21,573 nt of DNA from a virus, in the IMG/VR virus record IMGVR_UViG_3300023223_000088, positions 1-21,573 of that record, one strand, 5' to 3'. Within the stretch, counting starts at the first letter, position 1. Each line of letters starts with the position of its first letter. The translations under genes were made by a program, and so were the position numbers. The notes beneath the pieces were generated by a model. It saw only the letters and a list, made by a program, of their open reading frames with translations, did no database searches and had not been told where the DNA came from. Shown here piece by piece: positions 1,220-21,504 of this stretch.

Positions 1220-2203
1220 ATGTCGGATAAAGAAAAACAATTCGCTGATCTACTCAAGGAGATGGTCGGCTTCAACAAGGAAACGATTACTGCGCTGGTC
1301 AAAGAGACGAGCGGTAATATGATAGGCGAGAGGGTCAACGAACTGGCTGAAGGATTATCCAATATCCTCACCAAATTTGAAGAGTCAATCGATACGCAAA
1401 TCAAGAAGGCTACCAAGCACCTGAAGGCAACGCACAAGGAAGTGCATCTCATCAAGGATGGCAAAACGCGTGTCGTCAAGGGGCACACTCATCCCATGTA
1501 TGAGAAAGCAATCAAGCTTTGTCGTCACCCTAAAATAAACCTTTTACTGGTGGGGCCAAGCGGATGCGGAAAAACTCACATGGCAATGATGATAGCGGAA
1601 GGGCTAGGGCTCAAGCACTACTGTCAGGGCTGCTGTGAAGACACAACCAAAGGCACGTTCGTTGGTATCAATCTGCCGAATGAATACATTCCAGGCACGG
1701 TGGAAAGAGTTATGAGGGACGGTGGCCTTTTGTTGATCGATGAATTCGATGCGCTCAATGCCAACGTTGCACTGATAATCAATGCTGCCCTATCTAATGG
1801 ATACATGGTCAATGCCAGAGGCGAGGTCGTCAAACAGCACGACGACTGTGTTATTATAGTGAGCGCCAATACGTTTGGCCGGGGTGCTGACCGCCTATTT
1901 TGTGGACGGAATCAGCTTGATGCTGCCACAATGGAGCGTGTCTATGCTCTGGACATGGATTATGATACGGACTTCGAGACCCAAATTGGCACGAAAGAAC
2001 TGTGCGATTTTGTCTGGGGCATTCGTGCCAAGGCAATCAAGAACCGTGTCCGCATATCAGTAGGCTCACGTTGGATTGAGAAGGGGCAAGCGGCAATGGA
2101 TTGCGGCGTTGCACTGAAGGAAGTCCAGAACGATTTGACATCCCATCTATCGATGGATGAGCGCAAACAAGTAGGGCTCACCCCTACGAAGTCAGCGGCA
2201 TAG
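1220..2203 (+). CDS. CobS/MoxR-like AAA+ ATPase
   Basis: A 327-residue single-module AAA+ ATPase. The N-terminal ~90 residues are helical and probably coiled. The ATPase core shows Walker A GPSGCGKT (112-119), Walker B GLLLIDEFDA with the acidic pair D174/E175, and a sensor-1 region IIVSANTF with N217; arginines at 221, 225 and 240 are finger candidates. The short core resembles the CobS/MoxR-type ATPases carried by many phages, which typically work as chaperone-like motors with a VWA-fold partner. The next gene fits that partner. The actual substrate is unknown; cobalt insertion is unlikely in a phage lacking other cobalamin genes. It starts after a leader with no Shine-Dalgarno sequence. 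Confidence 0.88.
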   Translation: MSDKEKQFADLLKEMVGFNKETITALVKETSGNMIGERVNELAEGLSNILTKFEESIDTQIKKATKHLKATHKEVHLIKDGKTRVVKGHTHPMYEKAIKLCRHPKINLLLVGPSGCGKTHMAMMIAEGLGLKHYCQGCCEDTTKGTFVGINLPNEYIPGTVERVMRDGGLLLIDEFDALNANVALIINAALSNGYMVNARGEVVKQHDDCVIIVSANTFGRGADRLFCGRNQLDAATMERVYALDMDYDTDFETQIGTKELCDFVWGIRAKAIKNRVRISVGSRWIEKGQAAMDCGVALKEVQNDLTSHLSMDERKQVGLTPTKSAA

Positions 2204-2208
2204 TGAAC

Positions 2209-2240
2209 CTCCCCCGAAAGGGGGAGTGTGCTAATTCAAT
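2209..2240 (+). promoter_or_regulatory. Intergenic hairpin 3 (GAAA tetraloop) with CTAATTCAA box
   Basis: The strongest copy of the element. CTCCCCC (2209-2215) and GGGGGAG (2220-2226) close a GNRA-type GAAA tetraloop. CTAATTCAA follows at 2231-2239. It separates the ATPase gene from its probable VWA-like partner. No T-run follows, so it would work as an RNA structure and not as a textbook intrinsic terminator. Confidence 0.65.
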
Positions 2241-2264
2241 CATCACAATCAACAATCACTTATC

Positions 2265-3215
2265 ATGTCATACACAAAAGCAAAAAATTCTGAGGTCGAT
2301 GAGACCAAGGGCAACACTCGTTACATACACTGGGAATCACTGCAAGGTATGGTCGAGTGCGCAAGGGCTGACCAATTCTGCGCAGCAAATCCTGAACACC
2401 ACATCAGCAACGAGTCCATGTTTAATGCATGGATCAATGAGGATGAAAGTCAATCGAAGCCTCAGTTTTATGTCGGGCCTCACTGGTATAAGCAAGGCAT
2501 CAGGTTCGCTGACATATTAAAGATGAACACTCACCCGAATCTCAATGAATACATGAACGAGATGCACAAGTTTGAAACGAAAAACCTTGAGGGATTTGTC
2601 GCCAAGAAAAAGCGGAGGCGTAAGCGTATCAGGGAGGAAGGTGAATCAGTCAGCATAGATCACTATGTTGACGACCCAAACCTTTGCATGACTGAAATAT
2701 ATACTGATCGTGTGGCCTCAAATATATGTGGGTTCATTGATCTTGTGTCCGAGGTCGGCGGCAATAGCAACATGTCTTCAGAGCAGCTAGAAAATTCAGG
2801 GCTTGCGGCATCGGCACTAGCTGACGCACTCGAAGACATTGGATACAGGGTGCGAATCATCATGGCTCACAAAGTAACCGAGCAAGATCCGAGAGCGGCA
2901 CACAATGTAAATATATATACCTGCATCATCAAGCACTACAATGAACCGCTTGATATGGGCAGGGTTGGCTTCACCATTGGAACTGGTGGGTTTTATCGGA
3001 CTGTTATGTTCAGCACCTATGCAAAATGCGCACTCGAAAGGGTGGCTCGTTCACTCGGCGCTGCTGTAGAGATAAAAGAAAGCGATCTTAAGAAGCTGCC
3101 AGTGGACATCAGCGAGAACAGTGTGATGCTGCCACGTATGAGAAGTCGGGAGGAAGCCGAACGATTCGTGAAGAAAACCATCGAAGAGAAACGCAAGGAA
3201 GCTGAAGCTGCCTAG
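2265..3215 (+). CDS. Probable VWA-fold partner of the AAA+ ATPase (DUF7192-like)
   Basis: A 316-residue protein. Residues 155-200 read CGFIDLVSEVGG, a short Ser/Asn-rich segment, then LENSGLAASALADALEDIGY followed by RVRIIM. This is the strand, loop, helix, strand pattern at the front of VWA domains. The canonical metal site DxSxS is absent: D159 is followed by L-V-S. From memory of the family this matches phage DUF7192-type proteins encoded beside CobS-like ATPases. A basic patch (KKKRRRKRIR, about residue 109-118) precedes the domain, and the C-terminus is a charged helix. Position directly after the ATPase supports a MoxR/VWA-style pair. The family label is recalled, not searched. Confidence 0.65.
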   Translation: MSYTKAKNSEVDETKGNTRYIHWESLQGMVECARADQFCAANPEHHISNESMFNAWINEDESQSKPQFYVGPHWYKQGIRFADILKMNTHPNLNEYMNEMHKFETKNLEGFVAKKKRRRKRIREEGESVSIDHYVDDPNLCMTEIYTDRVASNICGFIDLVSEVGGNSNMSSEQLENSGLAASALADALEDIGYRVRIIMAHKVTEQDPRAAHNVNIYTCIIKHYNEPLDMGRVGFTIGTGGFYRTVMFSTYAKCALERVARSLGAAVEIKESDLKKLPVDISENSVMLPRMRSREEAERFVKKTIEEKRKEAEAA

Positions 3216-3243
3216 CATATCACAACCATCAACAATATAAATC

Positions 3244-3735
3244 ATGTCCCAACAAAAAATAGTTACACTCGCATTGAGTTACGATCCGAGTAGCATGGGC
3301 CCGCAGTGTTTTAATTCAGTAGAATTATTCCGAGGCTCCGACATGCGTGACGCTGCTGAAAAGCTTATGACACACATGAAGGAACGACTGGGTGCGACTG
3401 CTTGCGCTGAACTAGCAGCCGAGATAAGCCATGCCTTCGATTCATTTCAGGTAGACCGCAAGATCAGGGGCGTGCAGTCATACACTCGCGACACTCCAAG
3501 CGACAGCGATTCCAACTGGAAACTGGACTACTACAACTACCCAGTGTTTGCATTTCAAATGCTGCTTAGTGAGAGGATAGCAGGCAAAGCAACAATCATA
3601 TCCGAGGATCATTCGAGCGCTGTCAAGAGGGCCGAAGGGATACTCAATACTGTAGGCATGGACGGATTCGTAGGCCACTACTTAAACGTTCGTGATCGTG
3701 GCATAGAAGTAATCGATAGCCGCCAAGTAGGATGA
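3244..3735 (+). CDS. Hypothetical protein (163 aa)
   Basis: A soluble, mixed alpha/beta protein with no recognised motif. The N-terminal part looks like strands followed by helices (residues 31-67), with a hydrophilic central loop containing DTPSDSDSNW. The start is preceded by AACAATATAAATC, an almost exact repeat of the leader of the 456 gene. The end overlaps the next gene by four bases (ATGA), implying translational coupling with the membrane protein at 3732. It belongs to the transcription group of the ATPase/VWA-like pair, but no functional link can be shown from the sequence. Confidence 0.75.
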   Translation: MSQQKIVTLALSYDPSSMGPQCFNSVELFRGSDMRDAAEKLMTHMKERLGATACAELAAEISHAFDSFQVDRKIRGVQSYTRDTPSDSDSNWKLDYYNYPVFAFQMLLSERIAGKATIISEDHSSAVKRAEGILNTVGMDGFVGHYLNVRDRGIEVIDSRQVG

Positions 3736-4034
3736 TAGCCGCCAGGGGATTCGACGAGGACGAAGACAAGATAGATGTCAAGGTCACTCTAGCAAGCAGG
3801 ACTGAGCGTATCAAATACAAGATACGCCAGTGTTACTATTGTATATGCAAATTATTCTTCGACATCTTTATCCTGCTGGCTGCGGTGCATTACATATTCA
3901 GCGGCATGATACTCGAAGCGATAGGCTGCTTCATACTCGTAGAGCTACGTGAATTCAAGCGTGACATGGAGAAGGCAGGCAAGCACACGAACATCAGAGT
4001 ATTTCAAGAACCATTCCAACCCAAAGGCAAATGA
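3732..4034 (+). CDS. Small membrane protein (100 aa)
   Basis: The first 30 residues are charged. They are followed by a Cys-rich stretch (CYYCICK, 34-40) and a hydrophobic region at about 41-70 that can form one long or two short membrane helices with a Gly-containing turn near 57-58. A basic cytoplasmic-type tail follows. Both ends use four-base ATGA overlaps, with the 3244 gene upstream and the 4031 gene downstream, so the three are probably translated as a coupled set. The function is unknown. Confidence 0.7.
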   Translation: MIAARGFDEDEDKIDVKVTLASRTERIKYKIRQCYYCICKLFFDIFILLAAVHYIFSGMILEAIGCFILVELREFKRDMEKAGKHTNIRVFQEPFQPKGK

Positions 4035-4324
4035 GCAACAACGACGACGACAAATATAAATATCACATCCAGTTTCTACTACTGAGGCTAGTGAACCACG
4101 CTATTGCGGTGACTGAAAAGAAACCGAAGGACATCATCGACAAGGCTAAAAGGTTTGTGATGCGTAGCATTGCAGTGGCACAGGTTCACCAGCTTGACAT
4201 CAAACAGTTGTGCGACGACACGTTCGTGCAGATACGTGACGAACGATTGAACGGTGACAGCGACGACGAGCTGTTGTCATTCATCTATCAACACATCAAC
4301 GAAATCACAGCCAACCATGCTTAA
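4031..4324 (+). CDS. Small helical hypothetical protein (97 aa)
   Basis: A predicted mostly helical soluble protein with acidic ends (SNNDDDKYK at the start; NGDSDDELLSF near the end). The middle (about 12-60) looks like an amphipathic helical bundle. No known family is recognised. It overlaps the previous gene by ATGA, and its stop codon is immediately followed by hairpin 4. An AAAGGTTT octamer lies inside the gene at 4149. Confidence 0.7.
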   Translation: MSNNDDDKYKYHIQFLLLRLVNHAIAVTEKKPKDIIDKAKRFVMRSIAVAQVHQLDIKQLCDDTFVQIRDERLNGDSDDELLSFIYQHINEITANHA

Positions 4325-4325
4325 C

Positions 4326-4350
4326 CCCCTGTAAGGGGAGGACTAATTCA
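4326..4350 (+). promoter_or_regulatory. Intergenic hairpin 4 with CTAATTCAA box
   Basis: CCCCT (4326-4330) pairs with AGGGG (4334-4338) around a GTA loop, and CTAATTCAA follows at 4343-4351. It begins two bases after the stop codon of the 4031 gene and precedes the leader of the 4386 gene, the same placement as copies 1-3. Confidence 0.6.
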
Positions 4351-4385
4351 AACAACACAATCATCAACTCACAACCACAAAAATT

Positions 4386-5939
4386 ATGACAGTAAAACTT
4401 GACATCAAAGGGATGCTAATGGCGGGGCTCAAGACGAGCGCACCGAAGGCAGCAGCGCCCGTAAAGGATGCGCCACATGTCGTAGTCAAAGAGGCTACCA
4501 TGAAGCCTCATAAAAAATACGATTACAAAGCGCCAACTGACGGCAAAGAAAGATCGATAAAGGAACTCATAGAAACTTTGCCCGAACCATACAGGTCACA
4601 GGCTATCGCTAATGCAACCTATGATCTCTCTAAGTTTAAGTATAGGAATGCACAGGAAGCAATAGGCGGGGCGTTCTCTTGGACTGAAAGCCCAGAGGGA
4701 TATTCATATTGGGCTGATGTGTCTAATTGGACGGTAGACAAAGCCGACTTGCCACCACCACCACCACCGAAGCCGGAGAAGAAGGTAGTAAAGAAGGTCG
4801 CGAAGAAAAAGTTTGCGAAGAAAAAATCTTCTGATCCACGTAGCCCCGACAACACACCAGTGCCAGAGCCAGTAGCAGCACCAGCACCGGAGCCTGAACC
4901 GAGTGGAGATGCACCCGAACCAGCACCGGAGCCAGTGCCAGAGAAAGCTGACGAGCCGGAGACACCACCCGAACCAGCGCCATCACCGCCACCGCCTCCA
5001 CCTAAGCCGTGTAAACCACCGACACCACCGGAGGAACCGAAGGCAGAGCCGAAGCCTCCACCACCAGAGTATGTAGGCACACACGAACTGGCTCAACGTG
5101 TTATGATCGTCAACGTTCACGTAAAACTTTGGGAAGGCAAGCGCACTGACAGTAGCGTAGGTAAGAAAATTATCCGTGAAGCAAATGCGAACGACGATGC
5201 AGGTAACTTCGTTAAAAACCTTATTAACCGGGACAAATACATCAAGCCCATCGAAAAGATACGAACACTAGCGAAGGCCACGCTGTATAAATACACAATG
5301 CCTTGGGGCTATGGCTCACGGGTCGTCACCGTCGATGCGTTCAAGAAACTGAGCGACGAGATACAATCCTTAATGACTCAGTTCGAGTATGCCGTAGGCA
5401 ACTTCATCGCACAAGATTATGACACTGCGAAGGAAGAAGCGGCCACCATACTCGGTGATCTATATAAGGAAGGCGACTACCCGGAGAAGTCAGCGCTCAA
5501 TGACAAGTTCGCTATGCACCTGGATGTCACCCCGTTCCCAACGGAGATCAAACTCAAACTGCCGGACGATGTGCTTGCTGACATCAAAAAGAATGTCGAA
5601 GATGGCATGTCTAACAAATGCATGGAGGCGTTGAACCTGCTAGTCAACAGGCTCGACAAAGCTTTGTCTGACTTCGCAGAGAAGGTGCGCAAAGACCCGA
5701 AGGAATGGCATGATTGCATCGTGCAAAACCTGAAGGACATGCTGGACATTGCACCATCACTTAACGTAACGAACGATGCTACACTTATGAAGGTGATCGA
5801 CACCGCAAAGACACGGCTTAAAGTTGTGCTTGCGATGGACACTAAGGAAGTGAGATCGCTCGTTGAAACCACACGAACAGACTTTGCTAAGAAAGCAGCG
5901 ACATCTGCGGAGGACATCCGCAAGCTGCTACTTGGTTGA
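4386..5939 (+). CDS. Large protein with DIKxML N-terminus and proline-rich linker
   Basis: A 517-residue protein in three parts. Residues 1-121 carry the DIKGML motif shared with the 675 gene and then a segment of the form LPEPYRSQAI...AIGGAFSWTESPEGYSYW; I recall similar segments in many phage hypothetical proteins, but have no name for them. Residues 123-229 are a Pro/Glu/Ala/Lys linker with polyproline runs and a basic block rich in KK, reminiscent of TonB-type spacers or histone-like tails. Residues 230-517 look folded and helical. The linker suggests bridging between two sites, or nucleic-acid contact through the basic block; both are inference. It is preceded by an AACTCACAACC leader (4366-4376). 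Confidence 0.8.
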   Translation: MTVKLDIKGMLMAGLKTSAPKAAAPVKDAPHVVVKEATMKPHKKYDYKAPTDGKERSIKELIETLPEPYRSQAIANATYDLSKFKYRNAQEAIGGAFSWTESPEGYSYWADVSNWTVDKADLPPPPPPKPEKKVVKKVAKKKFAKKKSSDPRSPDNTPVPEPVAAPAPEPEPSGDAPEPAPEPVPEKADEPETPPEPAPSPPPPPPKPCKPPTPPEEPKAEPKPPPPEYVGTHELAQRVMIVNVHVKLWEGKRTDSSVGKKIIREANANDDAGNFVKNLINRDKYIKPIEKIRTLAKATLYKYTMPWGYGSRVVTVDAFKKLSDEIQSLMTQFEYAVGNFIAQDYDTAKEEAATILGDLYKEGDYPEKSALNDKFAMHLDVTPFPTEIKLKLPDDVLADIKKNVEDGMSNKCMEALNLLVNRLDKALSDFAEKVRKDPKEWHDCIVQNLKDMLDIAPSLNVTNDATLMKVIDTAKTRLKVVLAMDTKEVRSLVETTRTDFAKKAATSAEDIRKLLLG

Positions 5940-9013: not shown

Positions 9014-10189
9014 ATGAAAACCATCGACGCATTCAACATCAGCCCACAAATCAGGGCGCGGCAATCGGATAGGGGTATCTGGTATCTCAGACACAGGGAT
9101 CTACACGGCAAGTCAATCGAATATTCAACAGGCGTGAAGGGCTCACGCACCGAGATCAAGCAGCATGTGAAGGCAGCAGGCGTGCATGATCTCGTCGCTG
9201 TCACTGCGGCTGGCTGTCTCAGCACCGAGACAATCCAACGTATCACAGGCAACACTAATATCAATCTGCTCGGCGTGATATGTGAGTGGGACGAACACAT
9301 GGGTCAGGCTGGCGAGGCAGACAGCACTCGCAGTGCTTTGTATAAGCGGATGATTCACTTGATTAAGCATAGCAATGGCGTGACTGCGACGAGTGGAGTA
9401 GGGGCAATCGAGATCAGTCACATCCACGCATGGGTCAACAACGAATTCTCTGGGCTGAAGCTTGCTACACGCAGGGCTCGGCTCACAACGATCAAGTCTT
9501 TCTTTAAGTTCTGCGTAGCAAAAGGTTATACGTTCACCAACCCTGCTGCACTGGTGAAAGTGAACATGAATATTATGACACACGCGCAGAAGGAAACGAA
9601 GAAGCAGGAGGCGATCACACTTGTAGAGCTGTATAAAATCATACGCTATGTCGATCAACTCATCGACAATCTCAAGGCAGCAAGGCTTTCTATCCCTTAT
9701 TCCGGCAAACAAAAATGGAGGCGAGAGGACAGCATCAGAGACAAAATCAAACGGCTTTCATTCTGGGGTGCGGCCTCAATACTATCATTCGAGACCGGAC
9801 TCAGGCTTGGTGATGTCGCTCAGTTGGAGCGCGATTCATTCAGCGCGGATGCTATCACGGTATGGACAGACAAGAGAGATCGACGCGTATCGATACCTAT
9901 GGATATGCTCGACATGGATCTGATACACAGGTGTGCCAGATACCTGCTGGACTACGGTCATTGCACCAGCTACATGTTCCCGATGCATAAGCTTCTTGTG
10001 ACCTCCGGCAAGTCAGATCACCTGTCGATGCAGTTCCGTAGGCTGGCTGACAAGGTGGGTATCAGCAAATCTTTTCACGGCTTCAGGCATTCTAGGATTG
10101 AAAGGTGGCATGATAAAGGTTTGTCTCTCGAAGCAATCGCAGAACTGGTAGCTCACAAATCCACCAAGACGACACTCGCATATCTATGA
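9014..10189 (+). CDS. Tyrosine recombinase / phage integrase
   Basis: A 391-residue tyrosine recombinase. The catalytic C-terminal domain has R264 (ETGLRLGD), K287 in the beta hairpin (VWTDKRDRR), H355 and R358 (HGFRHSR), H381 (ELVAHKS) and the nucleophile Y390 as the penultimate residue, so the active site looks complete. Residues about 75-180 form the SAM-like core-binding domain. The N-terminus (WYLRHRDLHGKSIEYSTGVK) resembles an arm-binding or AP2-like strand region. It breaks and rejoins DNA through a 3'-phosphotyrosine link. Its stop overlaps the terminase small-subunit start (ATGA), and no att-like repeat is seen beside it. It could serve integration, excision or multimer resolution. 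Confidence 0.92.
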   Translation: MKTIDAFNISPQIRARQSDRGIWYLRHRDLHGKSIEYSTGVKGSRTEIKQHVKAAGVHDLVAVTAAGCLSTETIQRITGNTNINLLGVICEWDEHMGQAGEADSTRSALYKRMIHLIKHSNGVTATSGVGAIEISHIHAWVNNEFSGLKLATRRARLTTIKSFFKFCVAKGYTFTNPAALVKVNMNIMTHAQKETKKQEAITLVELYKIIRYVDQLIDNLKAARLSIPYSGKQKWRREDSIRDKIKRLSFWGAASILSFETGLRLGDVAQLERDSFSADAITVWTDKRDRRVSIPMDMLDMDLIHRCARYLLDYGHCTSYMFPMHKLLVTSGKSDHLSMQFRRLADKVGISKSFHGFRHSRIERWHDKGLSLEAIAELVAHKSTKTTLAYL

Positions 10190-10914
10190 CCGAACCCGCC
10201 AACGTCCTTATTGTTGACCGTGAAACTGTCCACGAATGCTTGAAGAAAACAGATGGCAACCGTAAGGAAACGTTCAAGGTTCTCAAAAGCGCTGGCGTTA
10301 AGATCAATGATGTTAAGCAGCTCTCTAAATACATAGAAGAAGATGAAGTGCTGTCGCTGATATGGACGGACGACTTTACATTCGATGCCGACGACAAGGG
10401 TGTTGACCCGCTGGCGATACGCGTGCCATTGAGCGAGGAAGCACTCACAATCGCACGCATACAGCGTGAAGAAGACTACATTGCTGCGCGTGGCCTTGAG
10501 AAAACAGGGCTGGAAGCATCAGAGATCAAGGAAATCGTGGCGCTATCTCAGTTCTCTGGTAAAAGCTTTGCCTCCACAATGGATATGCTTCATGGGATAA
10601 TGACTATCCAGGCTTTCAGGCTGAAGGTTAGGGCCAAGTGGATTGAGGATGAAGTCCTTGATAGCGAGGAAGAAGTGGAACGTATGGTAGTGACAAGTGA
10701 TGGCGATGTCCTCAAATACAAAGGCCCGAAATACACGGAGGAGGAAAAGGTTGTATGGCTTCAGTGCTGGATAGATATTAATGACAAGCTCCGGCGCATC
10801 GCTGAGACTGGACACAACTCAGCAGGCGTAAGGGCTAAGGTCGAGCGCTTGGCGGGCGGTGGCGGTGGCAACAGCAGCGGTAATCGACTAAAGAAGCTAC
10901 CGGAGAATGGCTAA
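10186..10914 (+). CDS. Probable terminase small subunit
   Basis: A 242-residue protein directly upstream of, and overlapping by eight bases, the large terminase gene. Residues about 14-50 (VHECLKKTDGNRKETFKVLK, then KINDVKQLSKYI) look like a helix-turn-helix of the kind small terminases use to recognise the packaging start. The central part is helical and acidic, suited to oligomerisation, and the C-terminus is a Gly-rich tail (AGGGGGNSSGN) ending in basic residues. The assignment rests on position and general layout, as these proteins diverge strongly. Confidence 0.65.
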   Translation: MTEPANVLIVDRETVHECLKKTDGNRKETFKVLKSAGVKINDVKQLSKYIEEDEVLSLIWTDDFTFDADDKGVDPLAIRVPLSEEALTIARIQREEDYIAARGLEKTGLEASEIKEIVALSQFSGKSFASTMDMLHGIMTIQAFRLKVRAKWIEDEVLDSEEEVERMVVTSDGDVLKYKGPKYTEEEKVVWLQCWIDINDKLRRIAETGHNSAGVRAKVERLAGGGGGNSSGNRLKKLPENG

Positions 10915-12484
10915 GAAGCGGCGTGTCAAACCTTTATATGAAGGCTCAGATTTCTGGGAGCCTGAGCTTGGCGACACCCAACGCAAGATGTTCTGGGATG
11001 ATGCCCCCTACATACTGGCATACGGTGAACGTGTCAGCGGTAAGACGCGTGGCCTGCTGAACAAAGCAGTGAAGCACGCATGGCTATACGATGATGCGTT
11101 AGTAATGATTACTGCCTTCACCCGCACTGGCGCTACGGCTGGTGGTGCGTGGGAGGAACTGTTGAGTGAAGGCACGAACCATCTGGGCCAGCCGCACGGT
11201 GTCCTGAAACTGTGGGAAAAAGGCTTGGGATTGGTATGCAGCGGTGAGTATGGCGACGATGCGAAGAACAAGTGGATAGATATACGAACCAAGAACGGCA
11301 AGAAGTCCCGCATGATGCTGAGATCCATGCCAGTTGCGGCCCACATTACATCACGAGTGAAGGGAACAGCGCCGTCATTCTTTCTGTATGAAGAACTTAC
11401 AGAAACATCCCTCCTTGATGATAGTTATTTTTTCGACATGATAGGACAGTTAGGACGGCGCGGGACAGTGCCAGCTAAGGCGCAGCAGTGGTGTGCTTCA
11501 TGCAATCCATCTGAGTATGGCGAGCGGCACTGGGTATATAAAACCTTTTTCATAGACCCTTGGATCAAGGACGAGGAGACCGGGAAGAAGCACTGGGACA
11601 CGGATTACTCTGTGTATCATGTGCCAATAAATGAGAATCGGTGGATGGAGGACAAGGAAGGCTACCTCCGGCGCGTGAAACAGAAGTGTAAGAATGATCC
11701 AACCGCTTACGACAGGCTGATCCTCGGTAAATGGGTAGCTAAGATCACTGGCGCTGGCATCTTCGAGCATTTCTTCATCCCGAACATACATATAAAGGGC
11801 AAGAGGGGCAAGAGCGGGCTCGTTCCCAAGGTCGGAGACCCCATCATCATCGGGTATGACCCAGGCGATGTTAATAATAGCCGGACGTTCATGCAGAAAA
11901 ACGTGGCGGGCAAGAAGGAAATCTACCGGGTGTTCGACGAGAGTGTGTTCATCAAGAAGAAGAAATCCTTCCGGTCACTAGTGCTTGAGCTGTATGATAA
12001 GATGCACTGGTGGTGTGAGCGCATGGATTACATCTTTCCCTTCTATCACATCGGGGATAGGGCATGTCTCACAAACTGGAACCCTCAAGGCAGCTATGAC
12101 TTCCTGCAATTCGAGAAATACTCGAAGGAAATCATTCAGGAATTCGATAGGTTCAAAGACCTAGCCCCTATCAGAATGCTCTACCCGCTCAAAGGTTCTG
12201 GCTCGGTAGCCGATAGGGTGAAGGTGATGCAGGATAAGCTGGCATCCGAGCAGTTCATGGTCTCGGCTACCTGCAAGGCGCACGTTGATATGCTGATGAA
12301 TCTGAAGAAAGCGAAGAAGCACGGGGCCGAACAAGACTACGCTCCACTCAAGACTGTGAAGGGTGAGATCCATACATTCGACAGTTGCTCCTACCCGATA
12401 TTTTACTATGAGCAGAGAGCCCGACCAAGCCTGAGTGTGCCCGACAGTGAGAAAAAACTTGAAGTTGTTCGATTTGGTGGATAA
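10907..12484 (+). CDS. terL: Terminase large subunit (packaging ATPase/nuclease)
   Basis: A 525-residue packaging motor. The N-terminal ATPase has Walker A GERVSGKT (40-47), a Walker B-like segment FFLYEE (158-163) in which the usual Asp is Glu, and a coupling-type motif SCNP after QQWCA. The C-terminal nuclease has probable metal-binding acids at D318 (IIIGYDPGD), D384 (HIGDRA) and D492 (TFDSCSYP). It cuts concatemeric DNA and pumps it through the portal into procapsids. The gene starts inside the small-subunit gene. AAACCTTT octamers lie at 10928 and 11541. The exact packaging type (headful or cos) is not evident from the sequence. Confidence 0.92.
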   Translation: MAKKRRVKPLYEGSDFWEPELGDTQRKMFWDDAPYILAYGERVSGKTRGLLNKAVKHAWLYDDALVMITAFTRTGATAGGAWEELLSEGTNHLGQPHGVLKLWEKGLGLVCSGEYGDDAKNKWIDIRTKNGKKSRMMLRSMPVAAHITSRVKGTAPSFFLYEELTETSLLDDSYFFDMIGQLGRRGTVPAKAQQWCASCNPSEYGERHWVYKTFFIDPWIKDEETGKKHWDTDYSVYHVPINENRWMEDKEGYLRRVKQKCKNDPTAYDRLILGKWVAKITGAGIFEHFFIPNIHIKGKRGKSGLVPKVGDPIIIGYDPGDVNNSRTFMQKNVAGKKEIYRVFDESVFIKKKKSFRSLVLELYDKMHWWCERMDYIFPFYHIGDRACLTNWNPQGSYDFLQFEKYSKEIIQEFDRFKDLAPIRMLYPLKGSGSVADRVKVMQDKLASEQFMVSATCKAHVDMLMNLKKAKKHGAEQDYAPLKTVKGEIHTFDSCSYPIFYYEQRARPSLSVPDSEKKLEVVRFGG

Positions 12485-12911: not shown

Positions 12912-13232
12912 ATGCCTGTTGCCATACTGCCAGTATCCGAACGCTCACCGACTTGGCCTCTTGACCAGGTGCTACGTGGCAAACAAATTCGCGTTATCTT
13001 TGCTGATTCACTTGGCCGCATACTGGTTGCGTTTTCTGATTCACCAGCAGAGAAAGTAAATTACGCAGCCGACAAGGTAACAACTGTAAATCTTTTAGAC
13101 CCCGGCACTTGTCAGGAACGTGTCGATACAATCGTCACTTCGTCTGCCAGCCTTGCACTGAGTTACACTGACACTTTCGCATACACGTTGGTCAACGGGA
13201 AGTTTGTTCTCGACACTGTGACCCGGAGTTAA
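12912..13232 (+). CDS. Small beta-rich hypothetical protein (106 aa)
   Basis: The composition (Ser, Thr, Val, Asp) and alternating hydrophobic pattern suggest a beta-sandwich-like small structural protein. It begins MPVAILPVSERSPTWPLDQV and ends FVLDTVTRS. No family is recognised. It sits between the terminase and the adhesin genes and ends five bases before the 13238 start. Confidence 0.65.
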   Translation: MPVAILPVSERSPTWPLDQVLRGKQIRVIFADSLGRILVAFSDSPAEKVNYAADKVTTVNLLDPGTCQERVDTIVTSSASLALSYTDTFAYTLVNGKFVLDTVTRS

Positions 13233-13234
13233 AA

Positions 13235-13262
13235 GCCATGCAGGATTTGTTCAAAGCATGGC
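13235..13262 (+). promoter_or_regulatory. Hairpin over the start codon of the 13238 gene
   Basis: GCCATGC (13235-13241) is perfectly complementary to GCATGGC (13256-13262), with a 14-base loop. The ATG of the 13238 gene lies inside the first arm, so folding of the mRNA would hide the start. This could limit initiation unless ribosomes arrive from the upstream gene, which ends three bases before the stem. Confidence 0.4.
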
Positions 13263-13834
13263 ATACGGTTCTGAAGAATCTAGCAACGCAACTTATCTTA
13301 TGCCTTGCTACTTCATTAAGATTTCCGGGCATTGATTCGCTGGTCGGTGGTGCATCTAACAATCTTGATAGCATCGACACACGCTGCTTTGACACGCCCA
13401 CTGAAATAAAGTATCAGGATGCAAGCACTGGCGCGTGGGTCACGGCTATGCTCATTGACGGACTGTTCGCCCAAGACGCACCGTTCGTAGTCAGACCTGT
13501 AAACTTTGAACTCGCACTGGTCGATGGTGATGCACTTGTAATAGGTGTCAGGTATTCTATTCGTATCGCTGGCAACTACTCTGCCTTTGGTGGCCCTGCT
13601 GCCGGACTAGTAGGAGAAAGCTTTGTATCTACAACTGTCGGCCCACTCACGGTTGGCCTTGAGGTAGCGTCACCCACCACGAATCAAAAGGTTTGGGTGC
13701 TGGATTCAGTAAGGCGTGGGGGATTAGAATTTGTATTCAACGAACAGACAGGAGATTTTCACAAACAGGTGCTGATAAACAATCCACCTTCCATGCAGAT
13801 AACCTACGACGACAACGGCATAACCATAACATAA
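13238..13834 (+). CDS. Small structural-type protein with GPLTVGLEV module
   Basis: A 198-residue protein. Residues about 96-148 (starting DGDALVIGVRYSIRIAGNY, then FGG and GPLTVGLEVASPTT) match residues about 49-99 of the following large fibre-like protein, so the two genes share a module. The rest is beta-rich, ending SMQITYDDNGITIT. The shared module could be a common docking domain of tail appendages. The N-terminal 25 residues contain a hydrophobic helix (LATQLILCLATSL), not a clean signal peptide. The start codon sits in a hairpin. Confidence 0.7.
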   Translation: MQDLFKAWHTVLKNLATQLILCLATSLRFPGIDSLVGGASNNLDSIDTRCFDTPTEIKYQDASTGAWVTAMLIDGLFAQDAPFVVRPVNFELALVDGDALVIGVRYSIRIAGNYSAFGGPAAGLVGESFVSTTVGPLTVGLEVASPTTNQKVWVLDSVRRGGLEFVFNEQTGDFHKQVLINNPPSMQITYDDNGITIT

Positions 13835-13841
13835 GCTCACA

Positions 13842-16367
13842 ATGAAGACACTGACCACAATACTTTTTCTCGCGTTAGCAACGCTGACGTTTGCACAGCG
13901 AGAGCCTGCGACAAACCCGAATGATTCTCCGGCGAGCACTATGGTCGAACGGGATGGTGTCACTGGACTGGACACGTTCGTATCGGGTGGTAAGCTGATC
14001 GTAACCGTAACCTACACTGTGGTCACTGCTGGTGATTACACTCCGTTCGGAGGCGTGGTCAGCACGGGAGGAGAAACCTTTGCTGCCACATCGGAGGGGC
14101 CACTGACAGTGGGACTTGAGGTTACTACTCCAACGACTGCTGGCAGATTACGGAAGCCGACTTACCATGAATTTTACGATGCTAATCCTGTTCGCGCTCC
14201 ACCTGATACTTCATTTGATGCTTCAAATACCATATGGGTTGATGCAGGTTTTACTGAGACGGAAGATGGCACACAGGGTGCTCCTTTCAATACGATTACG
14301 GAGGGATTTGCGGCTTCGAGTGCGGGGTTTATTATAAGGGTAGCTCCGGGGACTTACGCTGAATCATTGACTGTCCCGCACGATCTATTCATTGATGCAA
14401 TAGGGGCAGTTGGAGTTACGGCAATTGATATTTCTTCAGGCCGTATAATGGGACGGCTATATAAATGGGAGTTCCATGCAAACGGGGCAATCATTCACCC
14501 TGATTTAAACGATGTCGATAATGCAGATTGTATATCATTCGCTGTAGCAGTCGGTCTTACTCAAAGCGCAGAAAGATATTCAGTCGGTAGTTATGGTGGA
14601 GCTGACTATGATTTTGGAAGTGGGGGCATGAATCTTAGTGTGGCGAATGGAAATTTAATAGACCTATATGGCATCGGGGTAAGAAAGCCCTTCTTTTTCA
14701 ATGATGCTGGCTCTGTTTTAATTACCTTAAATGCTTCTAATAATCTTAAAAATCTGAAACTTGCAAGCGGAGCATTTGATTTTACAGCAGTAATATTCAA
14801 TGGTGCATTTAATTTTACAGGTGAGATTTCTGATATTGAATCTATTCAGAGGATACACCTGTCCAATACTGCGTCTAATGCGTTTAACGGGACATTGAAT
14901 AATGTTTCTGCTGCCGAAATTCTTGTGTCAGGAACGCTTGCACAAAATAATGGGTCACTGATTGCAATAAATTTAATTGAAGGCACTGGCAGGTCTATTG
15001 AGTTAGGTAATTTCGGTGGTGATTTAGAACTAATTAGCGGGGCATTAAAGGTTGTGGGCGTAATCACTTCTTCAGCATCTATTGATTATACAAGGGCAAA
15101 AAGTTTAGATATGGATGTAGCAACAGCATCCGATATGAATGGAATAATTCATGCAGGAACTACTGAGAGCCTTTTTGCCACTGGGGGCTTAGATACTATT
15201 TCGGGCAAGATGAATGGATTATATATGACCAATTTAACGGTTGGTGCATTTATAAATGATTACGTTTCTAGTTTATTTGAACTAAGCAATTTTGAAATCG
15301 GATATTTTTCAGACATAGCAGCATTTGACGAACATACCTTATTGGATGGCAGCAATTTCAGAAATGGAAAAACTACATTGTCTGCCGTGCCCTCTCAAGC
15401 AACTGGAGAAGGGCGAGCGGCAACCGCAGAAAATAAGGCTCTCTGGCAGAATGTTATTATTGAGAGAAATCCAGATGATTTTTCCCAAATGACAAAATTT
15501 CCTGTATCGACTGGAGCGACATTGGTTAATTGCGAATTTAGAAACTTTGTTTCAGGGAGTTCAGATCCGTTGGACTCAGCGATTTGTGGAAGAGATTTAA
15601 TCAGGCATTATGCAAACGGAGATGCCACAGTTCTATTCTGGGACTTTGCAAACCAGCGTCTTGATTGGGATTTAGATACTGGTGTTGTCCCGCAAACTAC
15701 AGACGGCACTGCACACGTCCCCTTTTCGAGTGGAGTAACTTTTGATGCAACAATCTATATATCTCCGACATCGACTGGAGATGCTGACGGTGATCTTACA
15801 TTAATAGAGGGATTATTAGTAGAGTTTGAACTTGTAGATTTAGGTGGGGGTGTTTGGCATTTAAGAACAACTGCTGCTGATGCGGCTACAATTAACACTG
15901 CACTCGGCTCTCCAACTGCTGACATAACCGCAGATTCGATAGGGGGTAGGATTGGAATGGCGGCAACGATTACGCTCAATAATGTGATTTTAAATGGAGC
16001 TTCTGCTGGACAAGAGATTACTATAATAACAACTGTTGCTGGTGGCGCACCAACCCACCAAGTTCTAACAGACGGCACTACTATCACATGGGATCAATCG
16101 CTCGGAACAATTGCAACGTTGACGCTGACCGATGCAGTCGGAACAAGAACACTCAATATTACAAACGATGTAATAGGCTTTTCCTCCTTGTCAATTATTC
16201 AAGACGCAACAGACGGTCTAGAATTGATCGCCACTTGGGACTCAGAAATCAAATGGACAACAGGACAAACTCCTACTTTATCTGAAGGACTAAGTGAGGA
16301 AGACAATATTGTCTTGGTTCGCTTTCCTAATCACTTCATAGCCTATAACGGATACGACTTTCAATGA
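13842..16367 (+). CDS. Large beta-helix fibre/adhesin with Sec signal peptide
   Basis: An 841-residue protein. Residues 1-18 (MKTLTTILFLALATLTFA) form a textbook Sec signal peptide with probable cleavage before Q19. Residues 49-99 repeat the module of the 13238 protein. From about 131, IWVDAGF...GTQGAPFNTITEGFA with IIRVAPGTYAESLTV is the classic opening of a right-handed beta-helix (pectin-lyase-like), followed by several hundred residues of repetitive Asn/Gly/Ser strands; the C-terminal ~200 residues are Thr-rich and beta. This is the build of a tailspike or adhesin that binds or cleaves surface glycans. GC falls sharply after about 14.15 kb, inside the gene. The next gene overlaps by ATGA. 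Confidence 0.75.
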   Translation: MKTLTTILFLALATLTFAQREPATNPNDSPASTMVERDGVTGLDTFVSGGKLIVTVTYTVVTAGDYTPFGGVVSTGGETFAATSEGPLTVGLEVTTPTTAGRLRKPTYHEFYDANPVRAPPDTSFDASNTIWVDAGFTETEDGTQGAPFNTITEGFAASSAGFIIRVAPGTYAESLTVPHDLFIDAIGAVGVTAIDISSGRIMGRLYKWEFHANGAIIHPDLNDVDNADCISFAVAVGLTQSAERYSVGSYGGADYDFGSGGMNLSVANGNLIDLYGIGVRKPFFFNDAGSVLITLNASNNLKNLKLASGAFDFTAVIFNGAFNFTGEISDIESIQRIHLSNTASNAFNGTLNNVSAAEILVSGTLAQNNGSLIAINLIEGTGRSIELGNFGGDLELISGALKVVGVITSSASIDYTRAKSLDMDVATASDMNGIIHAGTTESLFATGGLDTISGKMNGLYMTNLTVGAFINDYVSSLFELSNFEIGYFSDIAAFDEHTLLDGSNFRNGKTTLSAVPSQATGEGRAATAENKALWQNVIIERNPDDFSQMTKFPVSTGATLVNCEFRNFVSGSSDPLDSAICGRDLIRHYANGDATVLFWDFANQRLDWDLDTGVVPQTTDGTAHVPFSSGVTFDATIYISPTSTGDADGDLTLIEGLLVEFELVDLGGGVWHLRTTAADAATINTALGSPTADITADSIGGRIGMAATITLNNVILNGASAGQEITIITTVAGGAPTHQVLTDGTTITWDQSLGTIATLTLTDAVGTRTLNITNDVIGFSSLSIIQDATDGLELIATWDSEIKWTTGQTPTLSEGLSEEDNIVLVRFPNHFIAYNGYDFQ

Positions 16368-17092
16368 GATTACTTAGCTTAATATTTCTAGCACTACTAC
16401 CACTGACAGCCAATGCGCTCAACTACGAGCAGCGTGTTCGGCATATTACAGGCAATGACCTTATGCGGCACTTTGATTTGACTGATCGCAGTGGGACTGC
16501 TGCGGTTGATCGTTCTCCAGTCGGCACTAACGCAACATATACAAACAGTCCTACCCTTTCTGCTATTGTCGGGTCTGATGGGAAACGCGCACCGTTGTTT
16601 GACGGGGTAGATCAACATGTAGTTCTAGGTAATCTTTCACCTCTTGGAAACAGTCTTGATTTTACTGTTATTATATGGGCAAAAGTTTCTGCGGTAGGAG
16701 TCTGGACAGATGGCATAGCCAGACAAATGATGTTGCTAAGAAGCGACACCAGTAACAGAATAGAACTCGCCAAGCTACTTGATGATAATACAATAGTGGC
16801 TTTTGTTAGAGCAGGCGGATCAAATTCTGCTCTAAATCTTGGCTCTATGACCACAACTGAGTGGTTTTGTTTTGGGATGGAATGTAGCGGAACTACTCAC
16901 GAGGTATTTTTTAATGGGGTATCTCAAGGCACTATTAACTCATCGGCATGGACGGGATCTGCCGCATGGGATGGAGGATGGTTAAGTAGAGCTGATACAA
17001 ATTCTAAATTTTGGGATGGGTATTTATCAAACGCAATCATCTCAGATACTGCGCTTAGTCCTGCTGCAATGATGGTGCTAGGAAAATTATGA
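16364..17092 (+). CDS. LamG/concanavalin-like lectin-domain protein with signal peptide
   Basis: A 242-residue protein. Residues 1-18 (MRLLSLIFLALLPLTANA) form a clear Sec signal peptide. The remainder fits a LamG/concanavalin A-like jelly roll: the segment APLFDGVDQHVVLGNLSPLG followed by LDFTVIIWAKVS is the typical front sheet, and GTTHEVFFNGVSQGTINSSA the typical mid-region before a Trp-rich end. Such domains bind carbohydrate and often form tips of phage fibres or secreted adhesins. It is translationally coupled to the beta-helix gene (ATGA) and to the 17089 gene, and shares their AT-rich composition, so the three probably moved together. Confidence 0.7.
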   Translation: MRLLSLIFLALLPLTANALNYEQRVRHITGNDLMRHFDLTDRSGTAAVDRSPVGTNATYTNSPTLSAIVGSDGKRAPLFDGVDQHVVLGNLSPLGNSLDFTVIIWAKVSAVGVWTDGIARQMMLLRSDTSNRIELAKLLDDNTIVAFVRAGGSNSALNLGSMTTTEWFCFGMECSGTTHEVFFNGVSQGTINSSAWTGSAAWDGGWLSRADTNSKFWDGYLSNAIISDTALSPAAMMVLGKL

Positions 17093-17343
17093 CATACGAA
17101 ATATTAAATCAATCTGACCTTGCAGGGTTAAACTTTTCACAGTTGAAACAAGATAGCGAATCAACTGTTCGACTGAATAATGATGGAACTGAGGGCGTGA
17201 TTGCTTATGAGGGTTCAAGACCTTCGACTCTTTCCAGTATAACAGCTTTAACTAAAGACAGCAGGACTACACACACCAACACTCAGATCAAAGCTTTATT
17301 AGTAGGAACTGGCTCAACAGGTTGGATTCCTGCTGAAGAATAA
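17089..17343 (+). CDS. Small hypothetical protein coupled to lectin-domain gene (84 aa)
   Basis: It starts in an ATGA overlap with the preceding gene. It is a hydrophilic protein (MTYEILNQSDLAGLNFSQLK at the start) that ends GTGSTGWIPAEE. The short repeats of Thr/Ser/Asn suggest a beta-rich accessory, perhaps a chaperone or tip protein of the neighbouring adhesins. No family is recognised. It carries the AAAGCTTT octamer at 17290, the first octamer after a 3.2-kb gap. Confidence 0.6.
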   Translation: MTYEILNQSDLAGLNFSQLKQDSESTVRLNNDGTEGVIAYEGSRPSTLSSITALTKDSRTTHTNTQIKALLVGTGSTGWIPAEE

Positions 17344-17444: not shown

Positions 17445-18137
17445 ATGAATATCAAAAGAACCATACAGGCACTCATTCTAATCCCGTTGCTCATTCTGAT
17501 GAGCGGCTGCACCATGACCATGCCTGACGGCACGGAGCATAAGGTGGGCGTTATTCAAAAGATGGGCTCATGGATGTATAACCCGGTTTACACAGAAGAG
17601 ATAGTCGGATACAATGTTGGCACGCAAGAAAAGGTAACAGGCTATAAGTCTGCTACGATTACAAATGCAGACGGCACTACCACTGAGGTCAAAGAGCCTA
17701 TCATCGAAATCGTTCCATACAAAGAGCCTATCTTTCAGAACGTGGTCTCAAGTTGGGAGCCGAACTTACTCGGTCAAGCACTCAAAATGGGAGCTGGATT
17801 GATACCCTTCCCTGGTGCGGAAGAAGCTGCTGGCAGTGCCCTTGCTTTGGGCAGTCTTGGAATGGGAGTGCAGGAAATTTTTAGGCGCAGAAGGAAGAAG
17901 ATCACTGACTCTGACGCGAGCGATCAAGAAAAAAAGATACAGATAGTTAAGGCTGAGAAAGATGCAGTCGAAGAAAACTTCCATATTACTGTCGGCGGTA
18001 TCAAAAAGTTTTTGAAATCCGATGCTGGTGAAGCAGGCACTAAAGCTCTCAAGGGCGCACTCAAAGACAAGGCTGCTGAGTTCGGGAAAGCCGGAGAATT
18101 CAAAGCAGCAGTCGGCCTGATAAAGCAATTGGTATAG
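17445..18137 (+). CDS. Phage-encoded lipoprotein
   Basis: A 230-residue protein with a lipoprotein signal: basic NIKR, hydrophobic core, then lipobox LMSGC with C22 as the lipidated residue. The Thr at +2 favours the outer membrane under E. coli rules. Residues about 45-105 are beta-rich with repeated Tyr/Glu/Val (EEIVGYNVGTQEKVTGYK). A Gly/Ala-rich helical region (115-145) ends in RRRRKK, and the C-terminus is amphipathic helix. No family is recognised. Roles could include superinfection exclusion, lysis or surface decoration. It is preceded by the triple leader repeat. Confidence 0.7.
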   Translation: MNIKRTIQALILIPLLILMSGCTMTMPDGTEHKVGVIQKMGSWMYNPVYTEEIVGYNVGTQEKVTGYKSATITNADGTTTEVKEPIIEIVPYKEPIFQNVVSSWEPNLLGQALKMGAGLIPFPGAEEAAGSALALGSLGMGVQEIFRRRRKKITDSDASDQEKKIQIVKAEKDAVEENFHITVGGIKKFLKSDAGEAGTKALKGALKDKAAEFGKAGEFKAAVGLIKQLV

Positions 18138-18707: not shown

Positions 18708-18952
18708 ATCCAAACGCAGAGGTAATCCGTGCGGAGTATATTCATATCAATAATACTTGGAACGGGGCACGGGCTCGTAGGCTTCTCAAGCTTGGGAAAA
18801 TATCAATCGATGAACTCGCAGCTTTAATCAACATGGACACTCACAAACTAAAAACGCAGATCGAAAACAATAAACTTTCCGGCGAAGTGAAGCTACACTT
18901 GCACAATTTAGAAACCTCTGTATTGAATAAGCGCCTACATCCGTCAGCATAA
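18704..18952 (+). CDS. Small HTH-like protein (82 aa, GTG start)
   Basis: It starts at GTG in a GTGA overlap with the previous gene and ends one base into the portal gene start. Residues about 20-60 (ARARRLLKLGKISIDELAAL, then DTHKLKTQIENNKLSGE) look like a helix-turn-helix of the sort seen in small terminase or regulatory proteins. Position directly before a portal gene is also compatible with a small-terminase-like or assembly role. The function is undecided. Confidence 0.65.
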   Translation: MNPNAEVIRAEYIHINNTWNGARARRLLKLGKISIDELAALINMDTHKLKTQIENNKLSGEVKLHLHNLETSVLNKRLHPSA

Positions 18953-21504
18953 TGGTAGACTACGACATACTAGACTCATACGGGACGAATCGGGATATGA
19001 TTCGTGCGGTCTTTACTGCCAAGTCTGACAAGATCACTCCGCACGCAGAGAAAATCCTGAACAAAAGGAAGGCAGCCCTGCTTGAAACGAAGGTCAAGCC
19101 GGACGATGCGCCGGATAACTGGGAGCCTAAGCTCACACCCAAGGAAATAAAAGCTTTGACATGGAAAACTGTCAACGGTTTGTGGAAAACACGGGAGGCA
19201 TGGCGCAAGAAAATCTGCACTCGCATTGAAGAGGGGTTGGTTCACAACGTCAGGCACTTCAGGTTTTATACAGCAGCCGACATGGCTATGGATTCCACAC
19301 CAATCCATGCTGAAGCCATACCTCTAAACCTTTATGCCCAGGGTAAGATAAACTTTGGCGACTGCGTTGATCGACTGAGTGATTGCTGCAAAGGTGATAA
19401 GCAAAAGCTGGAACAATTTCTGGTTAAAGATCCTAAAGATCCTCAGAAGGTTGTGGGCATCGACCTTCCAAGGCTCCACCATGTTATCGTCAACATCGTT
19501 CGGCCTCTGATTACACGTAGGCTGGCAGCGCAGGCTAACAAATTTAATAATCTGTGGCCGTATCTCAAGTATGACACTCGCGACAAGAAGCCAGTATCAA
19601 AGCTTCGTGGTGATGTGATGAGCCAGCGTGCCGAGGTCATGTCGGACAACTACGGATACCGCCATCTGTTCACACAGGCTATGCGCAAGTCATTGCTACA
19701 CGGGCACGCGCTCGCTTTCCCTGAATCAGCCTGGGATAAAGAGTTCGAGTTCCGTAAGAAGATGAAGGGTGGTGACGATGCCGGATGGGAAGCAGAAAAG
19801 GTTTTAGTCAAGGAAGGTATCAACTTTATACTGCCTCACCCGAACAGGAGATTTTATGATTTACAATACTCACCATCCACATTCAACACTGACAGCGGTT
19901 GCAGATACGCAGGCTTCTGGGATGTAGACAGGCTCCGCAACCTGTTAGGCAACAATATGTATTACAACACCAGTGAGGTCAGGGTGTCAGAAAGGTTCAT
20001 TAACCGCTTCGTCACGAACCAAGAGTTCAATAGCTGCAACTTCTCACGTAAAACAATTTCACTAAAGCCGCGCCACTTAATCCGGCATGACCAGAAGAAT
20101 GATCGCAGCACTACATACTGGATCGATGCAAAGAATTCAGGTGACACTGAGGTAGTCGTCACTACCTACTACGAGAAGATTATACCGAAGGATGAAGGGC
20201 TCGGTGACTATCCTTTCCCTGTGTGGATCAGACTGCTCGTAGTTGACGACGACACTGTTATCTTTGGAGAGATCATGCCATCACGCCCATGCCTGTATCT
20301 CGGATACAATGAGGACGACTCACGCGTGATCGCTCAATCAATGGCGCATGAGATCATCCCTTACCAAGATCACATGACAAACCTTTTCAGTCAGATGCTA
20401 TACCTGATGAAGCTGCAAAGCTTTTTATTACTGATGGTCGATGTAGATATGCTGTCGGAAACACATCGAGAGCAGTTCAAGGAACTTGTGAAAGGCAACC
20501 AGTATTTTGCGAAGCCGTTGCTAGTGGAACATTCGTCTACTGACTTCCGTGAAACCTTTGGAAAGAATCCCGACAACCCGGTTAAGTTTGTCATTCCGCA
20601 AATACAAGCGCAGATAAACGAGTTGCTTCGTGGCGTGTCTGAGATTCTAGCAATGGCTGAACGTAACCAGATCATGTCACCGCAGGAGCTCGGTCAGTTC
20701 AATCAACGCGAGACAAGTGCCACTGAAGTTGCATCTGTCGAAAGCACTACCAACGCTGTGTTCAGCTTTATCTCTGAAGGGGCTGATGATTTCCGCGCTG
20801 CATTGAAACAAATGATTTATGAGTCCACTGTCGCTAAGGGCAGCAAGACAATCAAAGTCCCTGTCATTAACACCTACGATGAAAAGGTTGTGCAGGCCGC
20901 TGGCTTTGAGATCGATAGGACTGATGAAGTTGACCTCAATGCAGATGCACAAGGCGACGATGGTGCGCCACCAACTGAAGTTCTAAAGAGCGAGACAGGT
21001 GCAGCTAATAAGCAGGCACTACAACGTCCTAACACCCAGACTATCATTGGCACGCGTGAGTCGTTAGTCCACAACTACACGTTTACATCACGCGATGGTG
21101 GCGAGCGCAGCATCAACGTGCAGGCTGCAAAATCTCTGGTCTCTCTCATGCAAGTCATTGGAAAGAATCCTGTGCTTATCGAGCGCATGGGTAACGACCA
21201 GCTATTCAAGATGGTGCAGGAAATCTTCAGGCTGTCCGGCTCTAGCTTTATACTGGAACTGCCAGACCAAGATGGTCAACAGCAGCAACCCGGTGAACTC
21301 ACTCAGGAGCAATTGACTCAGGTAATCCAGGGTATTGCACAGCAGGTTCAATTGAACTCAACAGAGATTCAGGATTTAGCCGGGGCCACTCGACAAATAC
21401 TTGAAGCTCTCGGCATCACAGTCCCGCCAGAGCAACCGCCAGCCGCACCAGTAAATCAAGTGCAGCAAGTGGCTAGACCACCAGGGCCAGGGCCAGTAGC
21501 ATAA
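18952..21504 (+). CDS. Portal protein (probable)
   Basis: An 850-residue protein with portal-like character. It has an N-terminal helical stem (about 1-90), and a central region LHHVIVNIVRPLITRRLAAQ...WPYLKYDT with MRKSLLHGHALAFPESAWDK resembles the clip/wing entry of portals. A helical crown region contains NELLRGVSEILAMAERNQ and the RETSATEV segment before FISEGADDF, a pattern I associate with large portals. The C-terminus (about 765-850) is Gln/Pro-rich and probably disordered. Portals form the dodecameric DNA gate at one capsid vertex and dock the terminase. Identity is by pattern recall; 850 residues is long for the family. It overlaps the previous stop by one base. Confidence 0.75.
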   Translation: MVDYDILDSYGTNRDMIRAVFTAKSDKITPHAEKILNKRKAALLETKVKPDDAPDNWEPKLTPKEIKALTWKTVNGLWKTREAWRKKICTRIEEGLVHNVRHFRFYTAADMAMDSTPIHAEAIPLNLYAQGKINFGDCVDRLSDCCKGDKQKLEQFLVKDPKDPQKVVGIDLPRLHHVIVNIVRPLITRRLAAQANKFNNLWPYLKYDTRDKKPVSKLRGDVMSQRAEVMSDNYGYRHLFTQAMRKSLLHGHALAFPESAWDKEFEFRKKMKGGDDAGWEAEKVLVKEGINFILPHPNRRFYDLQYSPSTFNTDSGCRYAGFWDVDRLRNLLGNNMYYNTSEVRVSERFINRFVTNQEFNSCNFSRKTISLKPRHLIRHDQKNDRSTTYWIDAKNSGDTEVVVTTYYEKIIPKDEGLGDYPFPVWIRLLVVDDDTVIFGEIMPSRPCLYLGYNEDDSRVIAQSMAHEIIPYQDHMTNLFSQMLYLMKLQSFLLLMVDVDMLSETHREQFKELVKGNQYFAKPLLVEHSSTDFRETFGKNPDNPVKFVIPQIQAQINELLRGVSEILAMAERNQIMSPQELGQFNQRETSATEVASVESTTNAVFSFISEGADDFRAALKQMIYESTVAKGSKTIKVPVINTYDEKVVQAAGFEIDRTDEVDLNADAQGDDGAPPTEVLKSETGAANKQALQRPNTQTIIGTRESLVHNYTFTSRDGGERSINVQAAKSLVSLMQVIGKNPVLIERMGNDQLFKMVQEIFRLSGSSFILELPDQDGQQQQPGELTQEQLTQVIQGIAQQVQLNSTEIQDLAGATRQILEALGITVPPEQPPAAPVNQVQQVARPPGPGPVA

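Follow-up and report, generated by a model that had tools for sequence, protein, structure and literature searches.

Two adjacent, translationally coupled genes of an uncultured tailed phage encode an 841-aa putative beta-helix protein and a 242-aa LamG protein, both of which begin with predicted Sec signal peptides. With a probability of roughly 0.55, these proteins are read here as tail proteins with which a temperate tailed phage binds its receptor; they would carry cleavable signals and be mounted on virions later. The window, i.e. the whole stretch of DNA that was analysed, is a 21.6-kb virus record (21,573 nucleotides) from a phage with an integrase, a Terminase_3 large subunit, and a portal-type protein. 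The interest lies in the recurrence of such signals across unrelated lineages and in existing virion data, not in the window locus by itself.

Signal peptides and start codons

The preliminary description of this DNA had claimed that both proteins begin with signal peptides that are cleaved near residue 18. Both open reading frames were confirmed, and their N termini were evaluated with a rule that considers the charge of the n-region, an 8-residue hydrophobic core, and small residues at positions -3 and -1, and that further demands the absence of acidic residues and of a prolonged hydrophobic stretch. The relevant features are:

13842-16367, + strand, open reading frame of the 841-aa putative beta-helix protein
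16364-17092, + strand, open reading frame of the 242-aa LamG protein
13836..13841, + strand, CTCACA leader directly before the start at 13842
13842..13895, + strand, predicted Sec signal peptide 1, residues 1-18, MKTLTTILFLALATLTFA followed by QRE; native GC3 of 0.50
16364..16417, + strand, predicted Sec signal peptide 2, residues 1-18, MRLLSLIFLALLPLTANA followed by LNY; top score of 94 frames
16364..16367, + strand, ATGA stop-start overlap between the 841-aa and 242-aa genes, repeated at 17089-17092

Both N termini exhibit the features of Sec and signal peptidase I substrates, namely a positive n-region, a hydrophobic h-region, small residues at -3 and -1, and no lipobox. In both, cleavage is predicted by the n/h/c-region rule after residue 18, between TFA and Q19 in the 841-aa protein and between ANA and L19 in the 242-aa protein. 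Shuffled versions passed the rule in 54 of 5000 cases (1.1%) for the former and in 108 of 5000 (2.2%) for the latter. As a six-frame control, all 94 ATG-started frames of at least 40 aa in the window were scored. Only three reach the scores of the two proteins, i.e. the two themselves and a 58-aa protein with two transmembrane segments at 456-632, and five further frames, all on the reverse strand, pass with lower scores. The 58-aa protein, located near the left end of the window, contains two hydrophobic helices; it passes the rule and reads as transmembrane. Applied to phage lambda, the rule detected Lom, the positive control, and rejected J, Stf, and orf-314. The claimed signal peptides were thus confirmed by the rule, the shuffles, and the six-frame control, and the predicted export of both proteins is well supported at the sequence level.

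The word CTCACA occurs within 25 nt of 7 of the 32 starts in the window, against 0.6 expected. Because this leader is enriched before starts in the window genome, the start at 13842 is considered sound, and the start at 16364 is fixed by the ATGA overlap with the preceding stop. Met-34 (ATG at 13941) may be an alternative start of the 841-aa protein. The 20-nt leaders of the 12 starts with true intergenic space (240 nt; A 111, C 68, T 44, G 17) are A/C-rich and G-poor, with recurring CTCACA and ATCAAC words. A Shine-Dalgarno sequence is nearly missing from them, AGGAGG being present at 6530 only, which suggests a host that does not depend on such sequences.

Position of the genes between terminase and portal

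The surroundings of the two genes comprise the following features:

9014-10189, integrase gene
10907..12484, + strand, terminase large subunit (PF04466, E 2.5e-8), left border of the fibre slot
12912..13232, + strand, 106-aa protein (gp12912), C terminus homologous to the gene directly upstream of the beta-helix gene of the relative G002
13238..13834, + strand, gp13238 (198 aa), with the N-terminal module in common with the 841-aa protein, no signal peptide
17089..17343, + strand, 84-aa protein, translationally coupled to the LamG gene, no signal peptide
17445..18137, + strand, predicted lipoprotein by sequence and signal rule (lipobox MSGC), a separate late protein with predicted export
18952..21504, + strand, portal protein (PHROG 6547; 13 relatives), right border of the fibre slot

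The interval from terminase to portal thus contains small proteins, gp13238, the 841-aa, 242-aa, and 84-aa proteins, and then the lipoprotein, a protein with one transmembrane segment, and a holin-like protein. Elsewhere in the window, a CobS-like AAA ATPase, a DUF7192 protein, and a proline-rich DUF3150 protein are clustered at 1220-5939.

Cultured phage relatives of the window portal or terminase were not detectable by tblastn, and single-protein scans of viral contigs with the portal, the terminase, the 841-aa protein, and the CobS-like ATPase gave no match. Likewise, genome scans yielded no prophage relatives. The lineage was opened by a short portal piece and then by a portal sub-alignment, which gave 13 portal relatives. 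The closest relative, G001, is syntenic, with 37% overall identity in the portal and 46% in the terminase. Its terminase-portal slot holds two signal-less proteins, one of 730 aa with PF12789 tail repeats and one of 296 aa that is beta-helix-like, so that the two window genes occupy the fibre slot of a syntenic relative. A predicted lipoprotein also lies between fibres and portal in G001 (L002:7049-8205), as in the window; none of those that were scanned gave a family match over the curated cut-off.

Domains and mosaic structure

The domain structure of the two proteins is as follows:

13977..14150, + strand, N-terminal module of the 841-aa protein (residues 46-103), in common with gp13238
14217..16364, + strand, predicted beta-helix/receptor part of the 841-aa protein (residues 126-841), with a DUF1565 match, G002 homology, and foreign composition
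16601..17065, + strand, LamG/concanavalin-A-like domain of the 242-aa protein (PF13385, Laminin_G_3)

The PF13385 match covers residues 80-234 at near full length of the family (40.5 bits against a cut-off of 27.6, E 3.9e-10), and the 242-aa protein also matches phrog_3545, a group of unknown function and not a curated tail-fibre family. A search for the LamG family in the 13 portal relatives gave no match. In the 841-aa protein, DUF1565 (PF07602) is matched over its cut-off at residues 139-176 (E 1.6e-5), a match of only 38 residues; neither a PHROG nor a curated tail-fibre family was matched. No PDB sequence match was found. Folds were run without deep alignments (pLDDT 30 and 37), and the model of the 841-aa protein is beta-rich at a low confidence of 37. 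A Pfam match to Lom/Ail beta-barrels was not obtained for the window proteins, and cysteines are few, three in the 841-aa and two in the 242-aa protein.

With the rest of the window as codon null, the two genes are the sole outliers in codon usage (z -8.5 for the 841-aa gene and -3.1 for the 242-aa gene). Within the 841-aa gene, GC3 is 0.46 over codons 1-125, the same as in gp13238, and 0.31 over codons 126-841 (p 0.0009). In a pairwise comparison, residues 46-103 are 46% identical to residues 94-152 of gp13238 over 59 aa (E 8e-10). Because of this break in GC3 and codon usage, and because of the module in common with gp13238, the signal and the next module of the 841-aa protein look resident, and the beta-helix part and the LamG gene look imported. 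The signal of the LamG gene is also of foreign composition, with a GC3 of 0.28 over 18 codons. The break near residue 125, the gp13238 module, and the mosaic of two relatives described below agree with the arrangement of a conserved N-terminal module and a swapped receptor part, as in tail fibres. The module looks like a phage repeat, but it is not assigned to one here, as a pattern search of the retrieved loci gave only the two window copies.

Signal peptides in relatives

The search for signals in fibres of the relatives gave a divided answer, negative for the relative G002 and the slot fibres of G001, and positive for the tandem fibres of G007 and G010. G002 (portal 39%, terminase 35% identity) contains a true homologue of the 841-aa protein, the nearest one (27-30% identity, E 1e-29, over G002 residues 30-711), and the gene preceding it is a homologue of gp12912 (60% over 60 aa, E 6e-18). 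The G002 protein lacks a signal as well as the first ~125 residues and begins about 30 residues before the beta-helix, hence a beta-helix part need not be accompanied by the signal. A homologue with a downstream start had been named in advance as evidence against the signals, and G002 provides one such case. It does not refute them, since all tandem fibres of G007 and G010 have signals and signal-bearing fibres of Cellulophaga phages are annotated from virion proteomics.

G007 and G010 (IMG/VR 3300005544_000001 and 3300025961_000012), two of the 13 portal relatives, contain three and two tandem fibre genes, respectively, all with predicted signals and mostly with stop-start overlaps:

G007 fibre 1, 1237 aa, signal MKFLTSLLLLVATTCFA followed by AVP
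G007 fibre 2, 413 aa, signal MRVILSILLSCLSASGA followed by SYF; Beta_helix PF13229, E 7e-9
G007 fibre 3, 1002 aa, GTG start, signal MAFKLLILLFIASQSIA followed by GQW
G010 fibre 1, 1453 aa, signal as in G007 fibre 1 but for one residue; GDSL-type C terminus
G010 fibre 2, 456 aa, signal MRGLIIITLFWYIAFC followed by NGA, or cleavage two residues later

These genomes resemble the window in belonging to the same lineage by portal and in having tandem, signal-bearing beta-helix fibres with LamG-like ends and mostly stop-start overlaps. They differ in that portal identity is just 24%, no sequence alignment is obtained between their fibres and those of the window, and the G007 fibres lie ~25 kb from the portal. 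In G007 fibre 1, a 37-aa stretch shares 65% identity with a protein of Pelagibacter phage Mosig that is annotated as a tail fibre, and the LamG-like end matches gp18 of Pseudanabaena phage Pan5 (36% over 111 C-terminal residues). The DNA of G007 and G010 is 97.7% identical until about codon 40 of the first fibre. The receptor parts then diverge except for an 89% core, and identity returns to 97.9% some 13 codons short of where the last fibre gene ends. The identity up to about codon 40 and the swap of the receptor cassette thereafter indicate that the signal and the mature N terminus travel with the backbone. A C-terminal TSRIRGISL motif of the G007 and G010 fibres was rejected as significant because it is explained by common flanking DNA.

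Several further observations were made in the relatives. The third, signal-bearing gene in the G007 fibre slot (L037:10942-13950) resembles by eye a glycoside hydrolase (KIHYWEFWNEPQ, NEP motif), with no Pfam match. Other relatives (L009, L013) carry more small late proteins with signals. One such gene (L009:14925-15107; MKTLFKSLVALAMLSAVTAFA followed by QDV) lies right after a putative capsid gene and runs off the contig end, and two further small proteins are predicted to be exported at L009:5386-6115. Open frames in the late regions of G002 (L027:5503-18999), G010 (L033:4392-15893), and G007 (L034:8212-19245), 3,677 to at least 4,499 aa long, are candidates for a giant virion protein.

Proposed route and alternative explanations

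In the preferred reading, a single operon with translational coupling would yield both window proteins, which Sec would carry through the inner membrane and which would mature at Q19 and L19. The mature proteins would fold outside the cytoplasm and become attached to the virion either at the envelope or when the cell lyses. In the 841-aa protein, the signal and the mature N-terminal module would represent the resident, virion-adapted part, and the beta-helix and LamG parts would form a swapped receptor cassette. Signals, gene slot, coupling, mosaic boundary, and recurrence in relatives, all read from the sequence, argue for this, and the 10-13 cysteines (2.3-3.3%) counted in three beta-helix-type proteins with signals would allow disulfide folding in an oxidising compartment outside the cytoplasm; the lack of a signal in the G002 homologue and in gp13238, which has the same module, and the few cysteines of the window proteins argue against it, as does the fact that the Cellulophaga fibres are analogues only.

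An alternative with a lower probability, though one to be taken seriously, is that the proteins are exported without ever entering a virion and act at the surface of the infected or lysogenic cell or in the medium, as an adhesin, a polysaccharide-binding decoy, a superinfection block, or a free depolymerase. The signals of both proteins would be expected in this case, the integrase gene makes lysogeny plausible, and the third G007 gene with its NEP motif resembles a secreted glycoside hydrolase by eye. A precedent is lambda Lom, a signal-bearing protein encoded amid tail-fibre genes, which is inserted in the host membrane (PMC12309495). However, virion receptor-binding proteins account better for the mosaic receptor cassettes and the fibre slot, virion MS/MS underlies the annotation of the Cellulophaga analogues, and no promoter exceeding shuffles was found near the two genes. 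The preliminary description had offered surface modification, biofilm, or decoy roles next to an unusual route of virion assembly. The latter is the better-supported half through G007/G010 and Cellulophaga; for biofilm or decoy functions, no positive evidence emerged here, and surface or decoy roles are possible.

It is rather improbable that the N termini are not used for export at all, either because translation starts downstream or because they form an uncleaved helix inserted in a membrane or the virion, with the fibres assembling in the cytoplasm as usual. The G002 homologue, beginning without a hydrophobic segment, and the signal-less copy of the module in gp13238 would fit, but two adjacent genes have full n-, h-, and c-regions with AxA-type sites, every fibre gene of G007 and G010 has a signal, and the CTCACA leader and the ATGA overlap suit the assigned starts. 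Signal-bearing LamG proteins are common in bacteria, and together with foreign codon usage in the beta-helix part and throughout the LamG gene, its signal sequence as well, this would agree with a capture of whole host surface-protein genes as recent cargo without a settled phage role. Such a capture is the least probable explanation, since the composition of the 841-aa protein is native over the signal and residues 1-125, which include the gp13238 module, the G002 homologue lies in a similar neighbourhood behind the gp12912 homologue, and the G007/G010 signal is within the conserved backbone.

Returning to virion-mounted receptor-binding proteins, the data suggest that some phages probably export fibres via the host secretion pathway before use. 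A wider proposal, held tentatively and at somewhat less than even odds, is a recurrent assembly mode of tailed phages in which receptor-binding fibres, secreted by Sec, would mature in the periplasm, perhaps with disulfide formation, and be added at the envelope or upon lysis to virions built in the cytoplasm. The backbone would keep the signal and anchor while receptor parts are exchanged, and the mode would have originated independently in the window lineage and in Cellulophaga phages. It is apparently undescribed so far: searches of the open literature gave no description of virion fibres with signals. In textbook assembly, tail fibres fold in the cytoplasm. If Sec export applies to the fibres in several phage lineages, their attachment must occur outside the cytoplasm, which would affect views on phenotypic mixing, superinfection exclusion, and fibre folding. 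Cultured Cellulophaga phages make fibre export directly testable.

Comparison with cultured phages

The claim that fibres of ordinary phages lack signal peptides held in every comparison except for the lineages of G007/G010, Cellulophaga phages phi19:1 and phi10:1, and Pan5. No fibre signals were found in lambda, Mosig, S-SKS1, phi38:1, phi46:1, phi12:1, 11b, P8625, G001, and G002. The Verrucomicrobia phage P8625 was rejected as a precedent because its LamG protein has no signal, and SignalP found no signals in this phage (PMC4642752). Lambda Lom is comparable as a signal-bearing late gene among the tail-fibre genes of a temperate phage, but its product is an outer-membrane beta-barrel and not a fibre. 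The adjacent gp18 and gp19 of Pan5 both have signal-like N termini. Like the window, Pan5 has a fibre-like protein with a LamG/SO2946-like C terminus (gp18), here beside a polysaccharide lyase, but its relation is to the G007 fibre and is limited to the 111 C-terminal residues. The Pan5 paper reports virion MS.

All four of the proteins gp101, gp102 (pectate lyase), gp103 (tail fiber), and gp104 of Cellulophaga phage phi19:1 bear signals, and their annotation draws on experimental MS/MS. The same holds for gp091-094 of phi10:1, and gp095, also with a signal, is named by similarity. The two phages thus have nine consecutive fibre-type proteins with signals, eight of them annotated from virion MS/MS; this documentation of virion association consists of the depositors' notes in the records, and the lists could include co-purified secreted proteins. 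In the half of phi10:1 that was examined, gp091-095 alone bear signals among 28 genes of at least 120 aa (p 1e-5). No Cellulophaga match to the window proteins was obtained by tblastn against 50,697 phage records. The Cellulophaga phages (Assiduviridae) differ from the window phage in their host, Cellulophaga baltica, and are analogues with no detected sequence relation, and their annotation is silent on signals. They resemble it in having consecutive genes of the fibre and pectate-lyase type, each with a Sec signal, and such a tandem cassette is present in the window in two of two genes, downstream of the signal-less gp13238.
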